IMG/VR virus record: IMGVR_UViG_3300050821_004022
Location: 1 to 36,548 of that record
Source of the DNA: a virus
DNA: 36,548 bases
Strand: one strand, 5' to 3'
This document shows, in pieces, positions 11,661 to 36,322 of this stretch (positions are counted from its first letter, which is position 1; each line of letters opens with the position of its first letter). Made by a program: the position numbers and the translations under genes. The notes beneath the pieces are model-generated. The model worked only from the letters and a program-made list of their open reading frames with translations, ran no database searches and had not been told where the DNA came from.

Positions 11661-12587
11661 ATGTCCAAGTCCACCATTTCGACGTTCGAACTGTTCAAGA
11701 GGTTCCCGGACCAAGAAGCCGCGCGAGTCTACATTGAAGGTCGGTTGTGGCCGGCCGGCCCCAAGTGTCCTGTCTGCGGTCTCGGCGAGCGCATTTCGGT
11801 CAGGACAGGCAAGCCGGGCTTTTACCAGTGCGTCCAATGCAAGGAGGATTTCACTGTTCGCACTGGGACGATTTTCGAGCGTAGCCATGTCCCGTTGCAC
11901 AAATGGCTTTACGCCATGTACCTGCTTGTGACGGCCCGCAAGGGCATATCGTCCATGCAACTCGCCAAGGAAATCGGGATCACGCAAAAGTCGGCTTGGT
12001 TCGTTCTGCACCGCCTGCGAGAAGCGTGCGGCGGTGACTTGACTATGCTTCAAGGGCTGATCGAAATTGATGAAACCTATGTCGGCGGGATCGAGGCCAA
12101 CAAGCACGAACACAAGAAGCTGAAAGCTGGGCGCGGCGCGGTAGGCAAGACGGCCGTCCTGGGGATGCGCGAGCGCGGGGGGCGGACCAAGGCGTTCACG
12201 CTCGCCAACACGGACGCACAGACAATCCAAGACGTGATCGTGCAAAACGCCGCAGTCGGCTCGATGCTCCACACCGATGAGCATGGCGCTTACCGGGATA
12301 TCGGCGGACTGTTCTTCAAGCACGAAAGCATCAATCACAGCGCGGGCGAATTTGTTCGCGACGGCGTGACCACCAACTCGATTGAGAGCGTGTTCGCGGT
12401 TCTGAAACGCGGGCTTGTTGGCGTCTATCACCATGTCACGCCGAAGCACCTCGGCCGCTATGTCGATGAATTTGCCTTCCGCTTGAACGAAGGCAATGTG
12501 GCGCGGCATACGTTGGACCGCCTCGACAGTTTCGTTGACGGCGTTGCTGGCAAGCGGCTGACATACAAGGAACCGTCCGGTGGATAA
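11661..12587 (+). CDS. IS1595-family transposase
   Basis: A 308-aa transposase (ISXO2-like DDE domain) that cuts and joins the element ends. An N-terminal zinc ribbon (CPVCG, then CVQCKEDF) is followed by the catalytic core: IEIDETYVGG (first Asp), LHTDEHGAY (second Asp) and TNSIESVFAVLKRGL (last acidic residue in the family N-x-x-E context). The ATG at 11661 has a GGGAG site upstream; the frame is open further but runs into the inverted repeat. The gene appears intact. Confidence 0.95.
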   Translation: MSKSTISTFELFKRFPDQEAARVYIEGRLWPAGPKCPVCGLGERISVRTGKPGFYQCVQCKEDFTVRTGTIFERSHVPLHKWLYAMYLLVTARKGISSMQLAKEIGITQKSAWFVLHRLREACGGDLTMLQGLIEIDETYVGGIEANKHEHKKLKAGRGAVGKTAVLGMRERGGRTKAFTLANTDAQTIQDVIVQNAAVGSMLHTDEHGAYRDIGGLFFKHESINHSAGEFVRDGVTTNSIESVFAVLKRGLVGVYHHVTPKHLGRYVDEFAFRLNEGNVARHTLDRLDSFVDGVAGKRLTYKEPSGG

Positions 12588-13398
12588 TCCGTATTTTCTT
12601 GGCGCGCGCGCGTGTGTGTCTTTTTCGGGAGGACGCACAAGCGGATTCATGCTGCGGAAAATCGTCGATGCCCATGGCGGCACACTGCCGGATTACGTGC
12701 TGCCGCTCTTTGCGAATACTGGCAAAGAGCGCGAGGAAACGCTTCGATTCGTCCATGACTGCGGAACTAATTGGGGGGTGAAAATCCATTGGGTTGAATG
12801 GCGCGATACGGCGGAAGGCTTCGAGGAAGTCGGATACAACTCGGCCAGTAGGCGTGGCGAGCCGTTTGGCGCTCTGATCGCCAAGAAGAAAATGCCGCCC
12901 AATTGGCAGGCTCGTTTCTGTACGGAGTTCTTGAAGGTCCGCGCCATGGATGCGTTCATGACATCGCGCGGCTGGGCTCCATGCACCTATACCGTGGTCA
13001 TAGGGCTTCGTTACGATGAAGGTCTTCGCATCTTCAAGATGCTTGAACGGAACGAGCGGGACGGTCGCCAGTGCATTGCGCCGATGTCTAAAGCGAAGGT
13101 GACGGAACCCGACGTTCTCAGATTTTGGGGCGCGCAGCCTTTCGACCTCGCCTTGGAACCCGGAGAAGGCAATTGCGATCTTTGCTTTCTCAAGTCGCGA
13201 GGCTGTCGGAAAGAATTGATACGGCGACGGCCCGGTGCCGTGCAGTGGTGGAAAGATGCCGAGCAATCCGTCAACGGCTGGTTTGACCGCCGAGACAGCT
13301 ACGCGGATTTGGAGGCCGAGGTTCATCGATCACCCGACCTCTTTGGACCGCTTACGGTTGAGCATGACGCCGAATGTGGCTTGATATGCCAGTCTTGA
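12580..13398 (+). CDS. PAPS reductase-like passenger protein (PP-loop family)
   Basis: A 272-aa member of the adenine nucleotide alpha-hydrolase superfamily. The PP-loop SFSGGRTSGFM is at about residues 14-24, FANTGKEREE follows as in CysH-like enzymes, and Cys residues (RFCTEF, NCDLCFLKSRGC, C-terminal CGLICQ) could hold an iron-sulfur cluster. Proteins of this kind are frequent in phages and in DNA thiolation or defence contexts; the substrate cannot be read from sequence. It starts with GTG inside the transposase end (8-base overlap), so the two are co-translated. The stop is 30 bases from the IS right end. Confidence 0.85.
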   Translation: MDNPYFLGARACVSFSGGRTSGFMLRKIVDAHGGTLPDYVLPLFANTGKEREETLRFVHDCGTNWGVKIHWVEWRDTAEGFEEVGYNSASRRGEPFGALIAKKKMPPNWQARFCTEFLKVRAMDAFMTSRGWAPCTYTVVIGLRYDEGLRIFKMLERNERDGRQCIAPMSKAKVTEPDVLRFWGAQPFDLALEPGEGNCDLCFLKSRGCRKELIRRRPGAVQWWKDAEQSVNGWFDRRDSYADLEAEVHRSPDLFGPLTVEHDAECGLICQS

Positions 13399-21639: not shown

Positions 21640-21932
21640 GTACGACAGCGGTTACTGAAATAGGCAAGTGCCGTTGGTGCGGCATGATCCATGGGCCGAT
21701 GTGCCCGAGCGTCAAGGCCATTGAGTATCATGCTGACGGCGTGACGGTTAAGCGTGTTGAGTTTGTCCATGCTGGATATGGCACGATTAACTCAGGTAAC
21801 GTCCGGCTACAACCAACAACCCCACCAACGATCGCTGAATTGGAAGCCATCCTCAACAGTGAGGATGATCGCAAGGTTTGGATCAATACAGATGGGAGCG
21901 TGACCGTAAATGAACCAAGCACAGCCAGGTAA
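21636..21932 (+). CDS. small Cys-motif phage protein
   Basis: A 98-aa protein with CRWCGMIHGPMCPSVKAIEY (residues 12-31), a probable zinc knuckle followed by a strand-rich VTVKRVEF segment. The TTG start overlaps the scaffold TGA and has a GGGAGG site 8 bases upstream, which supports it. Similar proteins are frequent in phage structural operons; role unknown. Confidence 0.65.
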   Translation: MSTTAVTEIGKCRWCGMIHGPMCPSVKAIEYHADGVTVKRVEFVHAGYGTINSGNVRLQPTTPPTIAELEAILNSEDDRKVWINTDGSVTVNEPSTAR

Positions 21933-22467
21933 GCGCCCACAGGGAGCGCCAGCGGCGCCGATCGCGCCAAGTCGCGGCACACAGCACGTCCCCGAGCACA
22001 AAGCCGCCGGCCCGGAGCCCCAGCACGATCCTGTGCACGCGCACGTCCAGCGCATCAGGCGCCGCCGCGGTGGTGCTGGCCAGGACAATCCGTTCGAGCT
22101 TCCGATGGATCAAATCCCGGAAGGGTCGAGCTACGAGTGGAAGCGTTGGAGCAACGTCGGCGCGCAGGACCCGTTCTACATCGCCTCGATGCGTGACCAG
22201 GGTTGGGAGCCTGTCGATCCCAAGCGTCACCCCAATTGGGTTCCGCCCGGCTATAACGATCCGTACATCCTCAAAGGCGGCATGATCCTCATGGAAAGGC
22301 CGATGGAGTTGACGGAGGAGGCGAAGCGCGAAGCGCGGCAGGCTGCTCAAGCGCAGATATCCTTCCAGGAACAGCGTCTCGGCATCACCCCCAAAGACAC
22401 TCTCAGCCGCGATCTCGTGAAGCCCAAGATCGTGAAAGAGATTGGCCGGATGGTCGTCGAGGACTGA
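21910..22467 (+). CDS. scaffold-region phage protein (paralogue A)
   Basis: A 185-aa protein. The first 60 residues are a basic, Pro/His-rich disordered region. Residues about 62-150 (IPEGSSYEWKRWS, GWEPVDPKRHP, GGMILMERPMELTEEAKREA) match the N-terminal half of the protein at 22707, so the two are paralogues. The conserved IPEG-SYEWKR-W-GWEPV core is found in uncharacterised phage proteins next to capsid genes. It starts 23 bases inside the previous gene. Confidence 0.7.
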   Translation: MNQAQPGKRPQGAPAAPIAPSRGTQHVPEHKAAGPEPQHDPVHAHVQRIRRRRGGAGQDNPFELPMDQIPEGSSYEWKRWSNVGAQDPFYIASMRDQGWEPVDPKRHPNWVPPGYNDPYILKGGMILMERPMELTEEAKREARQAAQAQISFQEQRLGITPKDTLSRDLVKPKIVKEIGRMVVED

Positions 22468-22696: not shown

Positions 22697-22706
22697 GGAA
22701 GACTTT

Positions 22707-23306
22707 ATGACATTTGAGATTCCGTCTGATCGTATTCCTGAAGGTTTGAGTTACGAGTGGAAACGTTGGTCTGTCATGGGTGATCATGACCCATCCGACT
22801 TAGCCTCGCTAAGGCAGAGGGGATGGGAGCCTGTAAGCCCCAAAGACCAACCAAGTTTAGTGTCGCCTGAACATCATGGTCCCCACATCATTAGTGGCGG
22901 CATGATTCTAATGCAGCGGCCCATTGAACTTACCGAGAAGGCCAAAGAAGAATCTAGGAAGCTGTTTCTGGACACGATGGCCACACTGAAACGAATCCTA
23001 GATGGAGAAGGAGAAGGGTTTTCGGATTTTAGATACAAGACGGAGTCTGATCGCCTTTGGCTCGACAAAATTCTTAATGTTGACGACGCAACGGAGGAGG
23101 ATGGCGGTAGTGGGACTGTCATTATTACAGTCCCGGCACGTGTGCACCTTAGTTTTGATCAGCAAGACGCGGCTCAAGTAACCTACCCTGGTGTAAGTAA
23201 AACGAAGGCGCATGTAGCGTATGCTCGGGAACTTGTTCAGATGCAGATGAATCGGTTGGATTTGTATTCAACGCTATTAAAGGCTCTGTTGAGTGTTAGG
23301 AGTTGA
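22707..23306 (+). CDS. chimeric paralogue B: paralogue A core plus scaffold tail
   Basis: A 199-aa protein. Residues about 1-95 match paralogue A (IPEGLSYEWKRWS, GWEPVSPK, GGMILMQRPIELTEKAKEES). The C-terminal about 40 residues (VHLSFDQQDAAQVTYPGVS, then YARELVQMQ) match the end of the scaffold protein at 20545. The middle is unique. The DNA is visibly richer in A/T and uses different synonymous codons from paralogue A, suggesting it came from a related phage and not from fresh duplication. Confidence 0.72.
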   Translation: MTFEIPSDRIPEGLSYEWKRWSVMGDHDPSDLASLRQRGWEPVSPKDQPSLVSPEHHGPHIISGGMILMQRPIELTEKAKEESRKLFLDTMATLKRILDGEGEGFSDFRYKTESDRLWLDKILNVDDATEEDGGSGTVIITVPARVHLSFDQQDAAQVTYPGVSKTKAHVAYARELVQMQMNRLDLYSTLLKALLSVRS

Positions 23307-23528
23307 TTGTCTAAAGTAGTCAAGCCATTGCCCCATTGTATGTTCCTAAAAACATCCTGTAGTATGCCGCAGTTCCTGACGCACCACGAGATGTGTCAGA
23401 GGGGTTGACCGCGCTGGTTGCCCGGATGCCAAGGCCCGCCGCGTCGGGTTCATAAAGCTTCCATCCTAAACCACAGGCTGATTCTGTTTGGTGTCGCGTG
23501 TGCGCGAACCGAGCTGCTGAGGTCAACG
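23307..23528 (+). promoter_or_regulatory. capsid operon leader with shared 12-mer, copy 2
   Basis: A 222-base gap without a convincing gene. It holds TTGTCTAAAGTAGTCA at 23307-23322, whose last 12 bases are identical to the element before the portal gene, and hairpin-forming text CTGAC / GTCAG and CCCG / CGGG further on. No good -35/-10 pair is seen. Likely contains the promoter for the capsid genes. Confidence 0.5.
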
Positions 23529-24146: not shown

Positions 24147-25073
24147 ATGGCTATCAACGTCGCCGCAATCCGCGATCTTCTCCTTCCTGGCCTTCGTGGC
24201 GTGGTCGGAGAGTACAAGCAATGGCCTGCCATCTGGCCAAAGCTGTTCGACCAGGGCAAGTCGGAACTCAGCCAAGAGCGCACCGCGTCGATGCGCTTCC
24301 TGCCGCTCGCGCAGCTCAAGACTGACGGTGGCCAGACGGCGTTCGACAACAACGCTGGCGAGGCTTTCGTCTACAACCAGCTTCACACCGGCATCGGCCT
24401 TGGTTACGCGATCACCCGCAACACGATCAGCGACAACCTCTACAAGGCGCAATTCCGGCCGTCGAATCTCGGTTTGCAGCGCAGCTTTGCGCAGACCAAG
24501 GAAATCTACGCCGCAGCCGTCTTCAACAACGCAACCACATTCGACACTACGGTCGGTGGCGATGGTGTGTCCCTGTTGAATACCGCGCATCCGCTGCCAG
24601 CCGGCGGGTCTGGTCCCGCGACCTGGGCAAATACGCCAACGACTCAAGTGGACCTCAACGAGACCACCTTGCTCAATGGCATGATCGCCATCCAGACCGG
24701 CCTCTACGACAACGCCGGCCTCCGTATGATGGCCACGGGCAAGGTGCTCGTCATCCACCCGAACAACGAGCCCGTCGCGATTCGCCTCATCCGCGCCGAG
24801 CTTCGCCCAGGCACCGCGGACAACGATCCGAACGTCATTCCGTCCGTTGCCGGCGGTATCAGCGAATATGTGAAGAACGTCTTCTTCACGTCGCCCTTCC
24901 CCTGGTACATCAAGACGGACCAGCCGGGCTTGCTCTACCTCGAACGCGAGCCGTTCGAGATCGACATGCAAGTCGATTTTACGACGGATAACTTACTTGT
25001 CAAGGGCTGGGAACGCTACTCGTACAACTACAACGACCCGCGCAGTTTGTGGGGCTCGACGCCAACATCGTAA
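24147..25073 (+). CDS. major capsid protein
   Basis: A 308-aa protein with features of the HK97-fold capsid subunit of the Mu gpT-like group: N-terminal arm IRDLLLPGL...WPAIWPKLF, then AFVYNQLHTGIGLGYAITRN, LLNTAHPLPAGG, LVIHPNNEPVAIRLI, a VKNVFFTSPFPWYIKTDQPG turn and a C-terminal strand region ending DPRSLWGSTPTS. It follows scaffold and decoration genes, the standard order. Rich in high-GC codons, consistent with high expression. Confidence 0.85.
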   Translation: MAINVAAIRDLLLPGLRGVVGEYKQWPAIWPKLFDQGKSELSQERTASMRFLPLAQLKTDGGQTAFDNNAGEAFVYNQLHTGIGLGYAITRNTISDNLYKAQFRPSNLGLQRSFAQTKEIYAAAVFNNATTFDTTVGGDGVSLLNTAHPLPAGGSGPATWANTPTTQVDLNETTLLNGMIAIQTGLYDNAGLRMMATGKVLVIHPNNEPVAIRLIRAELRPGTADNDPNVIPSVAGGISEYVKNVFFTSPFPWYIKTDQPGLLYLEREPFEIDMQVDFTTDNLLVKGWERYSYNYNDPRSLWGSTPTS

Positions 25074-25241
25074 TGGCATCAATCACTTAACTGTGGCGAA
25101 CGGTGACAAGTGGTGCCACTAAAATAGTGTCGGAAAACTAGGGCGGCAAAGAAAGTCCAAATAGACCATGGTATGTCGGTTGTGGTGCCTCCCAAAAGCG
25201 GTACGTATTTTACTTGACAAAGATGTTTTAATGGCTTAACT

Positions 25242-25264
25242 GGCGTCCATCAATAGATGGAGCC
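25242..25264 (+). promoter_or_regulatory. hairpin over the HNH gene start
   Basis: GGC-g-TCCATC-AATA-GATGGA-GCC (25242-25264): a 9-bp stem with one bulged G. The GGAG that would serve the start at 25272 lies in the 3' arm. T4 homing endonuclease genes are known to be translationally silenced by such structures. The rest of the 25074-25256 gap holds a TTGACA at 25214 without a good -10 and a CACTA-AAA-TAGTG hairpin. Confidence 0.45.
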
Positions 25265-25271
25265 ATTGGAG

Positions 25272-26330
25272 ATGAGAAAGAAACAAGGTCGGCCGACGCG
25301 CGAAAGGCTTAAGGAGCTGTTTGACTATGATCCTCAGACGGGAGCATTTACGCGCAAAGCTCCTGGCAGGACATGGTCTTGGAGTGGCCACAGGAAATAC
25401 GGTGCGGTTGGCGCTGGCAGAGTGACAGAACTTGGCAACGTGATGATTGCTGTTGATGGACATAGCTTTAGCGGCGGACCTCTGGCGTGGTTTTATATCC
25501 ACGGCAAATGGCCTCGGCGCGTTAGGTACGTCAATGCCGACCCTACCGATTTGAGGATTTCGAATATTGAGGAACTTAATCGGAAGGGCAAAGACATCAA
25601 GGCAACAGTGTTGACCTTGGAGAGGTTGAAAGAGTGCTTGGATTATAGTCCTGAGACTGGCTTGTTTAGCTGGAAGTTGTCGTCAGCTTTGCATGACGTT
25701 GGGGATAGGGCTGGTGGTCGTCACGGTGCTGGTTATCGGCACATTGGGTTGGATTACAAGCGCTATCTTGAGCATCACTTGGCGTGGTTTTACATGACCG
25801 GCGAATGGCCGCAGCACGAAATAGATCATGTAAATCGTGTTCGCGATGACAATCGTTGGTCGAATTTGAGGGATGTTAGCAAAAGCGACAACAGCCACAA
25901 CAAGCCGTTGCATTACCGCAGCAGCAGCGGATTCCCTGGCATTTATCCTCATGGCAACAAATTTAGGGCGCGAATAGAGATACACGGTCTTGTCTTCGAT
26001 CTTGGTAGATTTCGAACAGTAGCCGAGGCTCGTGTTGCTAGGCTTCTTGGCGAGATAGAGCACTTTGGCCGCTGCACGACTTTTGATCACCATCGTGATG
26101 GCCAGTTGCCATCCATCGACGGTGGGTCGGTGCGAATTGAACTGTACACGTCTGATATTCGTGGCGGTCGCTATGATAGTCTGACTGTGTATAATCATCA
26201 TGGAGTCCCTTTCCACGTAAAGGGGCCGGATACGATCTCTGGAATTATAGCTGCGTGGACGTTGGACAGAGATGAAGCCGCCCATTCTTCCGATGCCGAC
26301 GCATCGCGAGGTTTGGAGTCTGACCGATGA
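25272..26330 (+). CDS. tandem-domain HNH homing endonuclease
   Basis: A 352-aa protein with two copies of the same module. Module 1 (residues about 13-105: LKELFDYDPQTGAFTRK, LAWFYIHGKWP) has lost the catalytic motif (VRYVNADP). Module 2 (about 117-215: LKECLDYSPETGLFSWK, LAWFYMTGEWP) keeps HEIDHVNRVRDDNRWSNLR. An AP2-like segment (GFPGIYPHGNKFRARIEI) follows. The last about 80 residues are unrecognised. Start 25272 has a GGAG site; ATG 25257 adds 5 residues. It separates the capsid gene from the next structural gene. Confidence 0.88.
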   Translation: MRKKQGRPTRERLKELFDYDPQTGAFTRKAPGRTWSWSGHRKYGAVGAGRVTELGNVMIAVDGHSFSGGPLAWFYIHGKWPRRVRYVNADPTDLRISNIEELNRKGKDIKATVLTLERLKECLDYSPETGLFSWKLSSALHDVGDRAGGRHGAGYRHIGLDYKRYLEHHLAWFYMTGEWPQHEIDHVNRVRDDNRWSNLRDVSKSDNSHNKPLHYRSSSGFPGIYPHGNKFRARIEIHGLVFDLGRFRTVAEARVARLLGEIEHFGRCTTFDHHRDGQLPSIDGGSVRIELYTSDIRGGRYDSLTVYNHHGVPFHVKGPDTISGIIAAWTLDRDEAAHSSDADASRGLESDR

Positions 26331-26371
26331 GTGCAACTCCCGGATCGGAGCCTGACCGATGAGCGCAACTA
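26314..26371 (+). repeat. 32-bp-period direct repeat at the HNH/structural gene junction
   Basis: GGAGTCTGACCGATGAGTGC followed by AACT and, 32 bases later, GGAGCCTGACCGATGAGCGC followed by AACT. Each copy holds a stop (TGA) and a start (ATGAGxGCAACT, coding MSAT). The first copy gives an 11-codon dead end (MSATPGSEPDR); the second starts the real gene at 26359. This looks like a partial copy of the downstream gene's start left at the endonuclease gene's edge. Confidence 0.6.
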
Positions 26372-27645
26372 TCAATTCCGGCCCGTTCGTCAGTGCTGGG
26401 CAACTCTTGGTGCCGTTCACCTCGGGCACCAATACTCCGGTTCCTGTTGGAACCTCGGAGTTCAACACCGATGCGGGGCCGAGTCTGAGCTATCAGGGCG
26501 ATGGCATCCTTGATTGCCGCTACTATGTCCAAAAGGACTATGGCGCCGGTCGCCAAGGTATCGTCTACGCCCACCTCAATAGCCCGTACATTCTTTCGTG
26601 CGATGCGGTTCCGGCAGCGAGTGCGGCTACGCCCGTCAACATCGCTGCGGCCGCTGCCCTTGTGAGCGGCACGCCGATGGTTCTGGCTGCGGCCTCGGCG
26701 GGCATTTCGACGGCGGTGCCGTTCTATCCGTTTCAGTCGAATACGCTTGTGCTCGCGAACATTGCGCTTGATTTCGGGTTCATGGCGGCGGCTACCAATG
26801 CCGCCAATGACACGTTCAGCATCAATGGTACCGTCACCGCGACTGCATCGAGTTTGGCGGCTGCCTCAAACTTCTATCCTGGGCAATGGCTCGTGCTGCC
26901 GAACGCGATTGCGGCCGGCGCGAGCGCGCTGATTTGCTATGTGGTGTCGGTGAGCGGCACGACTATTACGCTGTCGGCGGCCCCGACTCAGACGACAACC
27001 ACGCAGATGGTTGGCACGGCCAACATTCCGAACAGCTCTTGGCTGGGAAATCCCACGCCTACCGGTGCCTTCCCGTATCTTGCCGGCGGCATTGGTGGCT
27101 TCCTCGATCCGAAGCAGTCGATTGCTCGTGGCGTCGGCATCGTGGCCACAGCCGGCGGTACGGCTACCCTGCAAATCCAAGGGTGGGACATTTATAATCA
27201 GCCGCAGACGGAAAACATCGTCGCAAACGGTGCGACCGCTGTGTATGGAAAGAAGACTTGGAAATACATCCAGGCGGTTGTTCCGCAGGCCACTGACGCT
27301 GGCCACACCTACTCTGTCGGCACGTCGGACTTGTTCGGTTTTGTCGTCAGGACAGATCGGTGGGAGTACACGAACGAATTTTGGAACGGCTCGTTCATTA
27401 CTGCAGCCGGACCAGCAACGACTGGCACATGGACCAAGGCCGATCTGACAAATCCGGCTACCAGCACCACAGGCGATGTACGCGGCACGTTCCAACCGAG
27501 CGCTCGTGGCCCATCGGCGACGCCGACCGGGCAGGTTGCGAATGGTACGGCGCGTTTGGCTTTGTTTACCTCGATCCCGCTCTACAACCTGATCTCGGCT
27601 ACGCCGTTCAATCCGACGCCGCTTTATGGCGTGGTGCCACAATGA
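26359..27645 (+). CDS. structural (virion) protein
   Basis: A 428-aa Ala/Thr/Ser/Gly-rich, strand-rich protein (MSATINSGPFVSAGQLLVPF) with few charged residues. The repeated beta-type text (TITLSAAPTQTTTTQMVGT, FGFVVRTDRWEYTNEFWNGS) suggests a virion shell or fibre component. The N-terminus of this type recurs in phage proteins downstream of capsid genes. No confident family. Its end overlaps the convergent HNH gene by 38 bases. Confidence 0.6.
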   Translation: MSATINSGPFVSAGQLLVPFTSGTNTPVPVGTSEFNTDAGPSLSYQGDGILDCRYYVQKDYGAGRQGIVYAHLNSPYILSCDAVPAASAATPVNIAAAAALVSGTPMVLAAASAGISTAVPFYPFQSNTLVLANIALDFGFMAAATNAANDTFSINGTVTATASSLAAASNFYPGQWLVLPNAIAAGASALICYVVSVSGTTITLSAAPTQTTTTQMVGTANIPNSSWLGNPTPTGAFPYLAGGIGGFLDPKQSIARGVGIVATAGGTATLQIQGWDIYNQPQTENIVANGATAVYGKKTWKYIQAVVPQATDAGHTYSVGTSDLFGFVVRTDRWEYTNEFWNGSFITAAGPATTGTWTKADLTNPATSTTGDVRGTFQPSARGPSATPTGQVANGTARLALFTSIPLYNLISATPFNPTPLYGVVPQ

Positions 27646-28300: not shown

Positions 28301-28383
28301 CACGGTTGGGGAAGTCAAGATAGCCTGATCGCGCGCAGGGTAATTCGCGCGGCCGAGCCCACGGAACCGGGTGGAGTAGCGAA

Positions 28384-29001
28384 ATGTCAAGGCTACGTCA
28401 TGGGGCCAAGCACCGGATGGCCGGTGGCCTTACCTCCAAGCCGCAATGGAATGCGGGCGGGTCGCAGAACGCGGCCAAGGAGGCTGAGGAGAAGAAGAAG
28501 GGTGGGCGCGTCCACGGCGAGGGCGAGCACGCCAAGAAGCGGCACGACCGTCCGAAGCGCGAGCGCGGCGGTGTCGTTCAGCGCGCCAAGGGCGGCGTTG
28601 TCGGCCATGCTGGGCATCATCCCTACGGCAAGGACAACGATGGCGGCACTCACGCCGATGGTGTCCATGTCGATGGAACCGGCGGGAAGGCTAGTCACAA
28701 GATGACCAAGCGTGCCCATGGTGGCGTTATCCACCACAAGCACCACCACGCCAAGCATTCCGAGCACCCGCACCACGATCTGCACCCGCACAACTACAAG
28801 AGGGGTGGGGCGGTCCATGATGGTATCGAGCACCCGGATGGCGACGTGCATCACGAGTCGTCTCACCGGGCTCATCGAGCCCGTGGTGGGCGCTTGCGCG
28901 GCGAGGGTGTTGGTGCCGAGAGGACACCTCTGACTGGTGCATCCAAGATTCGTGAGGTCACCCCAGGTGAGCTTCCACCGCACGGAATCAGGAGCGACTG
29001 A
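28384..29001 (+). CDS. His/Lys/Arg/Gly-rich protein with repeated GG-x-V motifs
   Basis: A 205-aa very basic protein with about 15% His. The motif (K/R)-x-GG-(R/V/A)-(V/I/L)-H/R is repeated about seven times (KKGGRVHG, ERGGVVQRAKGGVVGHAGHH, AHGGVIHHKHHH, KRGGAVHDG, ARGGRLRG) between His-rich spacers. It shares KxGGRVHG with the protein at 18044. Likely disordered; metal or DNA binding is plausible. A good GGTGGAG ribosome site precedes the ATG. Confidence 0.62.
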   Translation: MSRLRHGAKHRMAGGLTSKPQWNAGGSQNAAKEAEEKKKGGRVHGEGEHAKKRHDRPKRERGGVVQRAKGGVVGHAGHHPYGKDNDGGTHADGVHVDGTGGKASHKMTKRAHGGVIHHKHHHAKHSEHPHHDLHPHNYKRGGAVHDGIEHPDGDVHHESSHRAHRARGGRLRGEGVGAERTPLTGASKIREVTPGELPPHGIRSD

Positions 29002-29009
29002 GGTGCGGC

Positions 29010-29255
29010 ATGGCCAAGATTACGGCCGCCAAAAGGCACTCACTGCCGCGTAGTGACTTTGTGTTTCCCGAGCGCGAAGGCTATCCAATCGATACGCCGA
29101 ATCGCGCTCGCAACGCTCTTTCGCGAGGAGCTGGTAACGCCTCGCCGGCTGAAATGGCAAAGATCAAAGCCAAGGTGCGCCGCCGCTATCCGAGTATCCA
29201 TGTAGAGGGCGCGCCCTCCAAGCACCGGGCGGATCACCCGGCCCGTAGGGGGTGA
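29010..29255 (+). CDS. DUF6582-like small protein
   Basis: An 81-aa basic protein: KRHSLPRSDFVFPEREGYPI, then ARNALSRGAGNASPAEMAKI and a final VRRRYPSIHVEG. This F-x-x-PE-R-x-YPI-x-x-P-x-x-AR-A-L pattern with a C-terminal K-V-R-R-R-YP is the DUF6582-type module found in phage structural regions; function unknown. Assignment from memory of the pattern. Confidence 0.72.
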   Translation: MAKITAAKRHSLPRSDFVFPEREGYPIDTPNRARNALSRGAGNASPAEMAKIKAKVRRRYPSIHVEGAPSKHRADHPARRG

Positions 29256-29258
29256 TCA

Positions 29259-29321
29259 GTGCGAACGGTCTTCACCAAGAGCCTATCGGCGGCATCGGCT
29301 AATTCGATAGCCAAAGTTTAG
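29259..29321 (+). pseudogene. orphaned 5' end of the 29972 gene
   Basis: GTG-started frame reading MRTVFTKSLSAASANSIA, then KV and a stop. 17 of its first 18 residues equal the start of the intact gene at 29972 (MRTVFTKSLSAASANAIA), yet only about 37 of 54 bases are identical, nearly all differences being synonymous. It looks like the original gene start, cut off by insertion of the endonuclease gene that lies between the two copies. Confidence 0.85.
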
Positions 29322-29357
29322 GGCTGACAAGCCGTTGCGAAGAAAGTAAAATGACGC

Positions 29358-29975
29358 GTGGCTACTATTTCTTCACTTGCTATTGTTCCGCAGGAGCGAC
29401 TTTGTGCCGCTTGCAATAAGATTTTGCCGATTGCGTCATTTAGGCGCCATGCCAGAATAAAAGATGGTTGGTCAACGCAGTGTATAGATTGTGTGGAGCA
29501 GTATAGGCTCAGCTTGCGCTTGGCGCATCCAATAGAGAGGACAGAAAAACGTTGTCGTAAGTGCAATGCCATTAAGCCTATTGCCGACTTTCATACAAAC
29601 AGGAGGAATCGTGACGGCCGTCAGAATTCATGCGCGGATTGCTGCCGTGCAGATACGAAGCGGTTCCGCGACATAAACCGACAGCGTGATAAAAAGTCGA
29701 AAGAAAAATCGAAGAATGAATGGCTATGGTTCAGCTATAGAATAAGGCTTTCTGACTACAGTCGTATGCTGTTGGCGCAAAATGGTACTTGCGCGATATG
29801 TGGATCACCGCCGAAATCAGGAACCGTGTTAGTTGTTGATCACAACCATGAGACAAAGAAAGTTCGCGGTCTTTTATGTGCATCATGTAATTGGGTGTTG
29901 GGAAACGCACGCGAATCATCGTCTATTCTTAGGAAAGCCGCAGATTACCTTGATGGGGATTTGGAAAACAAATGA
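29358..29975 (+). CDS. endonuclease VII-like homing endonuclease
   Basis: A 205-aa protein. Two N-terminal Cys knuckles of the same design (CAACNKILPIASF...CIDC and CRKCNAIKPIADF...CADC) precede a recombination endonuclease VII core: YSRMLLAQNGTCAICGSPP, VVDHNHETKKVRGLLCASCN (residues about 159-178) and a helix NARESSSILRKAADYL. The DHNH carries the catalytic residues; CxxC pairs hold zinc. GTG start. It is AT-rich and inserted in the 5' end of the next gene, which it overlaps by 4 bases. Confidence 0.9.
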   Translation: MATISSLAIVPQERLCAACNKILPIASFRRHARIKDGWSTQCIDCVEQYRLSLRLAHPIERTEKRCRKCNAIKPIADFHTNRRNRDGRQNSCADCCRADTKRFRDINRQRDKKSKEKSKNEWLWFSYRIRLSDYSRMLLAQNGTCAICGSPPKSGTVLVVDHNHETKKVRGLLCASCNWVLGNARESSSILRKAADYLDGDLENK

Positions 29976-30640
29976 GAACTGTCTTCACAAAATCACTATC
30001 TGCGGCGAGCGCCAACGCCATAGCCGCAAGTCAAAGCGGCACGATTGGCACGCCGCTAACGTTGACGGCCGGCGTTGTCACAATTGACACGGCTTCGGCC
30101 ACCAACAGCGCTATTGGCCGGCGCGTTTTGGTCACGACAACCAGCGCCGACGCCACAAACGGTGTCGTTTGGGTGGTTGTTGGCACCAATGCCTCTGGTG
30201 CAACGATTACCGACAGTTTCAACGGTGTCAACGCTGGCACGGTTGGCTCGAACTTGGATTTCGTCACCGTTACCAGTGTCACGCCGACAGCGGGATCGGC
30301 GGGAACGACAGCGACGCAGGTTGGTACGAGCGCAAACGGGTCGAGCCCGTGGCTGGCGCTCAATTGGCGCGGGGCTCCGCCACTTAACGTCGGCATTGCC
30401 GTCGAGCTTGTGTCTGGGTCTGCGACCTATTCCATTGAGTACACTTACGACGATCCAAACCTATTGCAGGCTGGTGTGGCGTTTCCGCTTCCGTTTACTT
30501 CTCTCGTCACGGTAGCGCTGGTTGCCGCTTCGTCAACCAAGGACGGCAATCTTCTATCCCCGGCTGTCGCCATTAGGCTGACGATCAGCGCCGGAACTGG
30601 CGTGTTGCGGTGCCGTATTGTTGAGGCCGGCACGGGATGA
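29972..30640 (+). CDS. structural protein, beta-rich
   Basis: A 222-aa Thr/Ala/Ser-rich protein (MRTVFTKSLSAASANAIAAS) made of repeated strands with Gly/Asn turns, a pattern of virion decoration or fibre-base proteins. Its first 18 codons are a second, recoded copy of the orphaned start at 29259. It overlaps the endonuclease stop by 4 bases, so it now depends on that gene's translation or its own weak site. Confidence 0.62.
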   Translation: MRTVFTKSLSAASANAIAASQSGTIGTPLTLTAGVVTIDTASATNSAIGRRVLVTTTSADATNGVVWVVVGTNASGATITDSFNGVNAGTVGSNLDFVTVTSVTPTAGSAGTTATQVGTSANGSSPWLALNWRGAPPLNVGIAVELVSGSATYSIEYTYDDPNLLQAGVAFPLPFTSLVTVALVAASSTKDGNLLSPAVAIRLTISAGTGVLRCRIVEAGTG

Positions 30641-33967: not shown

Positions 33968-36322
33968 ATGGGAGATTTCTGGGGTTGGTTCAACGGGTTT
34001 GCGGCTCCGAAGCTTGGGGTGCGTGAGAAGACTTTCCGCAAGATGTTCGAGTACCTCGATGCGATCGATCGGCCGGCGTGCGTATGGGAGACCGGATGCG
34101 TTCGAGACCCCAATGATTGGGGGCCGGCTGGGTGCTCCACTTACCTGTTTGATCGCTACGTCGTGGATAATGGCGGCGAAGTAACATCGGTCGATCTTAA
34201 TCCGTCAACCGTTGAGCGATGTAGGAGAGAGGTCAGTTCTCAAACAACCATCCATTGCGACGACAGCGTGGAGTTCTTGACGAGGGCGGCAAAGGCTTCG
34301 TGGGTGTCGCCCGTCGATCTGCTGTACCTCGATTCATTTGACATGGAATGGCACGATCCAGTTCCTTCTGCGCACCATCACCTCAAGGAGTTCATGGCGA
34401 TCCTGCCCGTGCTGAGGTCGGATACGCTGGTGGCGGTGGACGACTCCCCTACGGTCTCTGAGGACTTCCAGCCGCGGGTGAAGATCGGAGGGAAAGGCGA
34501 GTTCGTCGCTAGGTACTGCCACTCTGTTGGCGCTGACGTGCAGTTCACTGGCTACCAAGTCGGATTCTCCAACGTCACGCGTCGGCCTGAGCAGACGGGT
34601 GAGTCCGTCGAGGACTTGATCCGGCGGGCGCGATGGAATGTCGAGCACGGTAACGTCGCGGCCGCTTCGCACCTCTATGACCTTGTCCTCATGACAACGC
34701 CGCCGCCGTGGGGTGGGTTGGCCAGGATCGCTCGCGGGGAAGCTTGCGCCTTCTTCGCGCGCATTGCGACTAAACAGAATCTCCGCGGCACGGCCGGAGA
34801 TTGGTATCGCACCGCCATAGAGTGCGATCCTATGGCAGTGGACTATCGACTGGAGTTTGCCAGTCGTGTGTTGCTGAATATGGGATCATACACCGGAGCG
34901 ATAAACGAAACGCGGCGAGCGGCTAGCATAGAGCCCGGCAACTATCGGGCGTGGGCAATGCTGGGCGGCATATTGCACGAGGACAATCAGGCGGCCCAGG
35001 CAGTGATCGCCTATGACAAGGCGATCGAGGTCGTGGACGAGTCCGACCCCGAGGCCGTTGCTGCCGTGAAGATGAACAGGTCCACGATAGCCCTTGATAT
35101 GGCAGACTATGGTTTGGTGGAGAAACTGTGCAACGACGTGATAGCTGGCGGGACCGATCGGGTCGGTGACGCCAAGCACGTCATGGCCCTCGCAGAATTC
35201 AGGCAATCTCTCCACGAGCAGGCGGCTGACACGTTTTTGGAAGCTCTGGAGTTGGGCGCGCGTGATCCTGGTATCGTGCGCTGGCACCGTTCCCACGCGT
35301 TGGAATCAGTTGGGCGCTACCGTGAGGCGTCGGTTGAGCGCGAGCAGCGGGCCAACCAGAACCGCCTCGGTAGCCTTTCCATGCCGATGAAGAGGTTCAG
35401 CAGGCCGGTGCTGCCGGCTCTTTGGGGCGATGACGCACCTCCAGTCATGACAGATGGTCGTCAAACATCCATCCATGTGCATACGGAAGCTGGGTCGGGC
35501 GATAACTTCGTTCTGGCGCGCTACGTCCCGATCTTGGCCGAGATGGGCTACGACGTGCGCTACGAGGTCATGAACGACATGTTCGACCTCATGCGGCACA
35601 GCTTCGAGGGTACCGGGGTGACCGTAGTGCGCGTCGCCCCCGACTATCCAGGATCATTGCGGATCGAGCCGTTCGACTACCATTGCCCGATCGGCAGCCT
35701 TATGCACGCTATGGGGACCGAGGTAGACAAGATTCCGTGGCGCGGGCCGTATTTGAAGGCCGACCCGAAATTGGTCGAGCAGTATCAAAAGCAACTCAGG
35801 TTGCCTTTGAGGAAGGTTGGTGTCTGCTGGTCGTCCGGCATTATCCGTGACAGGGATGTGTGGCTTGAGTCCTATGGCCGGCGCAAGTCGATGCATTTCG
35901 ATGTCATGCGCCCGATCTATGAGACAGAGCGCTCTGGTGTGCAGTTTGTTTCATTACAAGTTGGGCCAGAGCGTAAGCAGAACCCTTGCACATACGTTGA
36001 AGACATTCTCCCCGAGCGCCCCACTTGGGCAGACACGGCCGCCCTCATCGAGTGTCTCGACCTCGTTATTACTGTGGATACGGGCGTGGCTCACCTGGCC
36101 GGTGCCATGGGCAAGCCCACGTGGGTGATGACGCAACGCAATTCTTCGTCATGGCATTTCATGTGCTGGAGGCCAGGGGCTATTTGGAACGAACGGAGTC
36201 CGTGGTATCCCAACACTCGTGTATTTCGACAGCACAAGTTCGATGAGTACCGCTGGGGCGAAGTAGTGAGAGATGTAGCCGAAGAATTGAATTGTGTTGA
36301 ATCTGTCAAGGCGGTGGCGTGA
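33968..36322 (+). CDS. methyltransferase-TPR-glycosyltransferase fusion
   Basis: A 784-aa three-part enzyme. Residues about 1-215: class I SAM methyltransferase-like domain with ETGCVRDPND (motif I region, 41-50), VTSVDLNPS (Asp76) and DLLYLDSFD (Asp122). Residues about 220-470: tetratricopeptide repeats (WYRTAIECDPMAVDYRLEFA, AYDKAIEVVDESDPEAVAAV). Residues about 510-780: GT-B glycosyltransferase with WADTAALIECLDLVITVDTG, VAHLAGAMGKPTWVM and PWYPNTRVFRQ, as in family 9 (heptosyltransferase-like). Likely modifies a glycan or virion protein; the substrate is unknown. Confidence 0.85.
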   Translation: MGDFWGWFNGFAAPKLGVREKTFRKMFEYLDAIDRPACVWETGCVRDPNDWGPAGCSTYLFDRYVVDNGGEVTSVDLNPSTVERCRREVSSQTTIHCDDSVEFLTRAAKASWVSPVDLLYLDSFDMEWHDPVPSAHHHLKEFMAILPVLRSDTLVAVDDSPTVSEDFQPRVKIGGKGEFVARYCHSVGADVQFTGYQVGFSNVTRRPEQTGESVEDLIRRARWNVEHGNVAAASHLYDLVLMTTPPPWGGLARIARGEACAFFARIATKQNLRGTAGDWYRTAIECDPMAVDYRLEFASRVLLNMGSYTGAINETRRAASIEPGNYRAWAMLGGILHEDNQAAQAVIAYDKAIEVVDESDPEAVAAVKMNRSTIALDMADYGLVEKLCNDVIAGGTDRVGDAKHVMALAEFRQSLHEQAADTFLEALELGARDPGIVRWHRSHALESVGRYREASVEREQRANQNRLGSLSMPMKRFSRPVLPALWGDDAPPVMTDGRQTSIHVHTEAGSGDNFVLARYVPILAEMGYDVRYEVMNDMFDLMRHSFEGTGVTVVRVAPDYPGSLRIEPFDYHCPIGSLMHAMGTEVDKIPWRGPYLKADPKLVEQYQKQLRLPLRKVGVCWSSGIIRDRDVWLESYGRRKSMHFDVMRPIYETERSGVQFVSLQVGPERKQNPCTYVEDILPERPTWADTAALIECLDLVITVDTGVAHLAGAMGKPTWVMTQRNSSSWHFMCWRPGAIWNERSPWYPNTRVFRQHKFDEYRWGEVVRDVAEELNCVESVKAVA

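Follow-up and report, generated by a model that had tools for sequence, protein, structure and literature searches.

Results and Discussion

In the window, i.e., the whole stretch of 36,548 nucleotides of the virus record IMGVR_UViG_3300050821_004022, a gene for a free-standing endonuclease VII (E7)-type protein lies in the start of a structural gene. It is probable that the encoded protein is a homing endonuclease, that the target gene exchanged its 5' end when the nuclease gene was inserted, and that the new start is a donor allele. The parts of this locus, like the head-protein gene end and the second nuclease gene treated below, lie on the plus strand. A stub of the gene (29259-29321) is followed by the E7 gene, which is intact (29358-29975), and by the restored start of the target gene at 29972.

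An interrupted and restored gene start

The stub is the orphan, original start of the structural gene. A GTG at position 29259 opens a 20-codon frame, VRTVFTKSLSAASANSIAKV*, the last stop base of which is 29321, and this frame consists of 18 native codons followed by AAA GTT TAG. The native codons share 18/18 residues and 42/54 bases with the uninterrupted gene of a sister phage, L002. On its left, the inserted DNA begins with the leader of the nuclease gene (29313-29357), which contains GACAAGCC, an 8-base match to codons 18-21 of the L002 gene (shuffle p 0.014). This match is a weak hint that homology to the target might once have reached to about codon 21 and that the true junction perhaps lies slightly further to the right. 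The restored, insertion-borne start (29972-30025) encodes the same protein with other codons, the first ten of which are A+T-rich, and its ATG at 29972 overlaps the TGA stop of the nuclease gene at 29975 in a common ATGA. Stub and restored start agree at 17/18 residues, if the GTG is taken as methionine, and at 37/54 bases; these values and the coordinates of the stub and of the intact gene, as reported in an initial annotation made from the sequence alone, are exact in both sequence and translation. Beyond the start codon, 10 of the 16 codons for the same residue are spelled differently. The peptide match across the nuclease gene is not a product of chance, because its score of 74 exceeds the 99.9% value of 67 among mismatched flank pairs, for which the 95% and 99% values are 35 and 40, respectively.

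The intact target gene (29972-30640) is situated between head genes and an SU10-type adaptor gene and codes for a beta-rich protein of 222 amino acids, which is 89% identical to its L002 counterpart over the full length. The protein has no match in Pfam or PHROG, a fold search gave no significant match in the PDB, and a search among sequenced phages gave no relatives. The upstream neighbour gene (29010-29255), encoding a DUF6582/phrog_16160-like protein of 81 amino acids, adjoins the target gene directly in relatives.

The empty site in a sister phage

The sister phage L002 (IMG/VR contig 3300031754_000022, the same contig as L039) has flanking genes that are 86-90% identical to those of the window, arranged in the same order. 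At its target locus the nuclease is absent, and a single uninterrupted target gene begins with GTG CGG ACG GTG TTT at L002:6001. The alignment of the window with L002 is unbroken from 28319 to 29311, i.e., to codon 18 of the stub, and starts again at 30011, i.e., at codon 14 of the new copy. Since the 12 base differences between stub and L002 alter no residue (10 of 17 codons differ synonymously), the stub seems to have been under coding constraint until recently. The restored start shares 33/54 bases with L002, the lowest value found, and 16/18 residues by the codon table (GTG read as valine) or 17/18 with GTG read as methionine. Among 48 distinct loci of the neighbouring gene pair, a nuclease between the 81-amino-acid gene and the target gene occurs in one, the window itself. 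An uninterrupted, nuclease-free start, for which the initial annotation had suggested to search, is present in L002, and the survey of the 48 loci concurs. Two gene starts in the absence of a nuclease, an arrangement that the initial annotation had considered contrary to its reading, were encountered in none of these relatives.

The E7 nuclease

The nuclease gene extends from a GTG at 29358 to the TGA at 29975, possesses its own start and stop codons and encodes an intact protein of 205 amino acids. Residues 125-199 match PF02945 (E 4.8e-21) and the protein matches phrog_2633 (E 2e-40). The catalytic residues D161, H162, H164, R170, and N178 are all present, as are the zinc cysteine pairs CAIC (from 145) and CASC (from 174). 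The protein conforms to the DHHRN pattern CX2-4C, D-H-x-H, R, CX2C-N, which is invariant in 24 relatives, and the distances of 9 from D to R and of 17 from D to N are those of F-CphI (D101, R110, N118). An AlphaFold model (pLDDT 85) resembles T4 EndoVII (1en7/1e7l) at 3.1-3.2 A and also Hpy99I, and its N-terminal part shows a weak resemblance to the tandem zinc fingers of Stc1. The predicted fold is EndoVII-like, as in the DHHRN family. T4 endonuclease VII (gp49) resolves DNA junctions and is not known to home. The nuclease of the window seems to share the fold of this resolvase; unlike gp49, it has additional N-terminal zinc-finger-like modules and is inserted at a target gene.

A possible route of insertion

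The most economical account of the arrangement is intronless homing with one-sided repair. In a phage that lacks the nuclease, the enzyme would cut the structural gene within its conserved start; the break is placed near codon 18 because the stub ends there. A diverged relative, in which the nuclease directly precedes the relative's own form of the gene, would then serve as the template for repair. The right side would recombine by way of homology within the gene, and the left side would be joined at or close to the cut with no extended homology. As a result, the 18 old codons would be stranded, and the nuclease would be acquired together with the start of the donor gene, leaving the gene product intact. 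The new allele is probably not cut, as the insertion splits the old site and the new start is spelled otherwise; the presumed target in the nuclease-bearing allele differs from L002 to the extent given above. Cutting at the gene start, the identity of the donor, one-sided repair and resistance are the parts of this account that we infer from the sequences. According to excerpts of PMC2988022, breaks made by T4 endonucleases can be repaired in a one-sided, illegitimate manner at microhomologies, and resistance through a donor allele that replaces the cut site is a standing assumption for free-standing nucleases in intronless homing (PMC12724721). The initial annotation had proposed that the nuclease targets this gene start and restores the gene, and the insertion within the start, the working replacement start and the homing-type active site all argue for such a role, as do the nuclease-free allele of L002 and the similar arrangements in other phages. 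The stranded start would place the probable site of cutting with a precision of a few codons, while the uninterrupted sister gene offers the matching substrate.

Origin of the new spelling

Codons 1-10 of the restored start have a G+C content of 33%, compared with 57% for the same codons of both the stub and L002, 46% for the nuclease gene and 56% for the window. The A+T-richness common to these codons and the nuclease gene points to a shared foreign source for both. In comparison with L002, the restored start is the most diverged stretch of the target gene, and among 1,655 comparable windows from five further shared genes one tract is equally extreme, namely the 3' end of the head-protein gene. 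The divergence between the two starts of the window is mostly synonymous, as the initial annotation held, but this is not peculiar to the restored copy, for the stub and L002 also encode identical residues with many different bases. Stub, restored start and L002 start behave like alleles of three lineages. Because all three are strongly diverged at synonymous codons, a diverged donor allele would be sufficient and seems to explain the spelling at least as well as recoding selected for resistance. It is for the same reason that the earlier proposal of a start recoded for cleavage resistance is not borne out, and to speak of direct sequence evidence for target site and protection was too strong, as a diverged donor allele might account for the spelling equally well. 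Intronless homing would lead one to expect resistance, but as a result of the donor origin. A scan with a degenerate VFTK motif, an alignment scan and the genome contigs yielded no donor of the new start.

Similar arrangements in other phages

In phage T2S1, the old start of tubular protein A, MATLLDVVQK, opens the E7 gene. Tubular protein A itself restarts with MTLLEVVQRYLN in an ATGA overlap, and nuclease-free Vibrio relatives read MAQ(I/V)TLLDVVQRYLNAT. In L045, a relative of the window phage that surfaced within the intended control set, a NUMOD4/HNH nuclease opens with MAKSNIVPLDLGQN and the portal gene restarts with MAKSNVLPLDLGQN; old and new portal starts agree at 12/14 residues and 31/42 bases, and nuclease-free relatives have uninterrupted portal starts. 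The Klebsiella phages KN4-1 and TUN1 carry E7 between gp11 and gp12. They deviate from five nuclease-free relatives in the final 20 codons of gp11 and in gp12 codons 2-12, and ahead of gp12 there is an additional ribosome-binding site with a second start. These cases of T2S1, L045, and KN4-1/TUN1 are backed by nuclease-free relatives, the remaining ones by their individual anatomy. By anatomy, L336 and L360 are further 5'-end cases; L336 has a free stub, MKLLDQVEN..., with 9/9 residues and 22/27 bases in agreement, and its target gene has a match in the family of terminase large subunits. Likewise by anatomy, the 3' end of the portal gene is replaced in L227, with the old end as a separate frame downstream, and in L229, L280, and L305 the old 3' end is fused to the tail of the nuclease.

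A raw score for flank duplication was rejected as proof of enrichment, since controls score as often (8/134 E7 genes versus 15/363 control genes, p 0.47); E7 genes are not enriched by this score because it also picks up tandem paralogues. The narrower pattern, a short stub start that stands free, was seen with 3/134 E7 genes and with 0/363 controls (p ~0.02, by hand, for a class assigned post hoc). Several candidates were discarded, i.e., L230, L281, L241, L263, and L324, which are low-complexity or zinc-motif matches, and L063 and L170, where neighbouring paralogous genes resemble each other. The EndoVII-type genes of the latter two (L063:13616-14302 and L170:7151-7663) overlap at their 3' ends with the beginning of the gene homologous to window gene 29010-29255; they have no visible stub, and the target site is a neighbouring one. 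In L042, the start peptide MSKDAVSEVRGYFS of a 151-amino-acid frame (776-1231) recurs identically just downstream, at 1430, a possible further start duplication.

Whether these arrangements represent a recurrent phage class of gene-end-swapping homing elements seems to us evenly balanced. Its members, from the EndoVII and NUMOD4/HNH families at least, would insert at the 5' or the 3' end of essential genes for head, tail and packaging functions. They would supply a new gene end, and the displaced one would persist either as a free stub or as a tail fused to the nuclease. If so, exchanged gene ends in phage genomes would serve as footprints from which nuclease targets can be read, and stubs would reveal the targets of many phage nucleases from sequence alone. 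Such a class would also illustrate how a selfish gene gets into an essential one with the help of neither intron nor intein and leaves it unbroken. As comparable insertions exist in cultured Klebsiella phages, the idea can be tested in the laboratory.

The junction behind the head-protein gene

The equally extreme tract of synonymous divergence between window and L002 lies in the major head protein gene, at its 3' end (24984-25073), where codons 290-307 agree at 33/54 bases and 17/18 residues. In both phages alike the tract adjoins nuclease genes. In the window this is a second homing-type nuclease gene (25257-26330) with a double HNH_3 domain, behind the head-protein gene, and at the same site L002 has a fusion of HNH_3 and EndoVII. 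A nuclease directly behind the head-protein gene is found with 14 of 27 related genes, in the forms double HNH_3, single HNH, HNH plus E7, and AP2 plus E7. L064 has a nuclease-free junction at which the last part of an E7-like gene remains, and this remnant appears to be the footprint of a nuclease loss. At codon 290 of the head-protein gene, AGR instead of CGN is used in 12/14 genes with a nuclease versus 3/13 without (Fisher p 0.0018, uncorrected for ancestry), and the excess of synonymous divergence in the tail of the gene is weakly associated with a downstream nuclease (label permutation p 0.04). Because of this weakness the recoding was rejected as a clean nuclease marker, and the association lends weak support to the homing account.

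Some further observations concern this region. The junction behind the head-protein gene, in the window (24147-26330) and in L038-L070, is a hotspot for unrelated nuclease genes. A 24-bp imperfect repeat in the window (26318-26380; CTGACCGATGAGTGCAACT... / CTGACCGATGAGCGCAACT...) yields a second short start (MSATPGSEPDR*) of the 428-amino-acid gene directly behind the HNH nuclease. In L039, L040, and L052, nucleases of differing families have a common C-terminal tail, LGFGA/LGLGA, before the stop and directly precede the gene following the head-protein gene. This common tail looks as if nucleases had been exchanged upstream of a retained end.

Alternative explanations

Conservation of 17/18 residues in spite of changes at 31% of the bases is also what one might expect if the element had first copied the start of the gene from the phage in which it resided and the copy had then drifted synonymously, as cleavable spellings were cut and removed. 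The gp12 gene of KN4-1 and TUN1, altered in codons 2-12 and nearly identical to its relatives thereafter, can be read in the same manner. However, stub and L002 are nearly as diverged synonymously (10/17 codons) although no nuclease is present between them, the gp11 end of KN4-1 and TUN1 differs in residues too, as a foreign allele would, and the A+T shift of the new start matches that of the nuclease gene. Selection for recoding is thus rather unlikely as the source of the new spelling. That the stub is a functional leader peptide, coupling or regulating the translation of the nuclease, we consider improbable. It is true that the stub retains upstream sequence and start codon, and that the nucleases of T2S1 and L045 take their start codon from the old gene start, to which they are joined in frame. 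In the window, however, 36 bases separate the end of the stub from the start of the nuclease, and the stub looks like the start of a gene that was interrupted. Any function as a leader would be secondary and leave the duplication unexplained.

It is very unlikely that ordinary mosaic recombination brought a second gene start next to the nuclease gene without involvement of the nuclease. Phage genomes are mosaic, and tandem paralogues give similar duplication scores, yet the breaks lie exactly at the nuclease gene, the target gene is intact, all active-site residues are retained, and nucleases of two families show this anatomy at targets that are unrelated to each other. Group I introns and inteins carry homing endonucleases and interrupt genes as well, but such an element was rejected here and has a negligible probability, for an Rfam search finds no intron, the left frame is closed by a stop and the right one reopened by a start codon, and splicing would duplicate exon sequence. 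Replacement of the gene start from a donor allele during homing remains the reading that we prefer.

Comparison with known systems

Endonuclease ORFs that replace the end of a gene are known from mitochondria, i.e., from atp6 of Allomyces macrogynus and from atp6, atp9, cox2, and nad3 of Glomus sp. (PMC3630166). There, the native end is 91-98% identical to that of a relative and the inserted end 64-81%, the proteins being 94-100% identical (PMC3630166). The window resembles these cases in that an endonuclease ORF lies in a gene that remains functional, the displaced native end matches a close relative, and the inserted end encodes the same protein with diverged DNA (in Glomus 64-81% of bases and 94-100% of residues). 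As in Allomyces and Glomus, the stub of the window is nearest to the sister allele (42/54 bases), compared with 33/54 for the restored start. In contrast to the 3' ends replaced in those mitochondria, the 5' end of a phage gene is concerned in the window, along with an EndoVII-type nuclease; 3' versions occur in L227, L229, L280, and L305.

According to excerpts of PMC6083498, F-CphI of cyanophage S-PM2 is the founder of the DHHRN (EndoVII-motif) homing endonuclease family and cleaves psbA. The nuclease of the window likewise belongs to a phage and has the EndoVII catalytic motif with all required residues at the same spacing; unlike in the window, a swapped gene end does not form part of the excerpted description of F-CphI. 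SegF, SegG, and MobE of T4 are, according to excerpts, free-standing nucleases in a gene junction with a nearby essential-gene target and resistance through the donor allele (PMC2988022, PMC12724721), and the window nuclease would resemble them in this. They differ from the window nuclease in being GIY-YIG or HNH enzymes, and a stranded copy of the target end is not described for them in the excerpts of PMC2988022. In the open-licence literature, no description of a gene-end-swapping arrangement in a phage was found. Gene-end-replacing endonuclease ORFs are thus known from fungal mitochondria, and the novelty of the window would consist in the phage 5'-end form and the EndoVII-type nuclease.

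Other features of the window

Two adjacent paralogous genes (21910-22467 and 22707-23306) have a common GGMILM.RP.ELT motif, and for the segment ~22698-23347 no match to L039 was reported. A PAPS-reductase-like gene (12580-13398; phrog_424, E 8e-46) is a possible auxiliary metabolic gene. The gene at 33968-36322 encodes a 784-amino-acid protein consisting of a methyltransferase-like domain, TPR repeats and a glycosyltransferase-9-like segment. Between 9625 and 11567, ARAGORN predicts four tRNA genes (Thr, Met, Tyr, and Phe), three of which are confirmed by Rfam.
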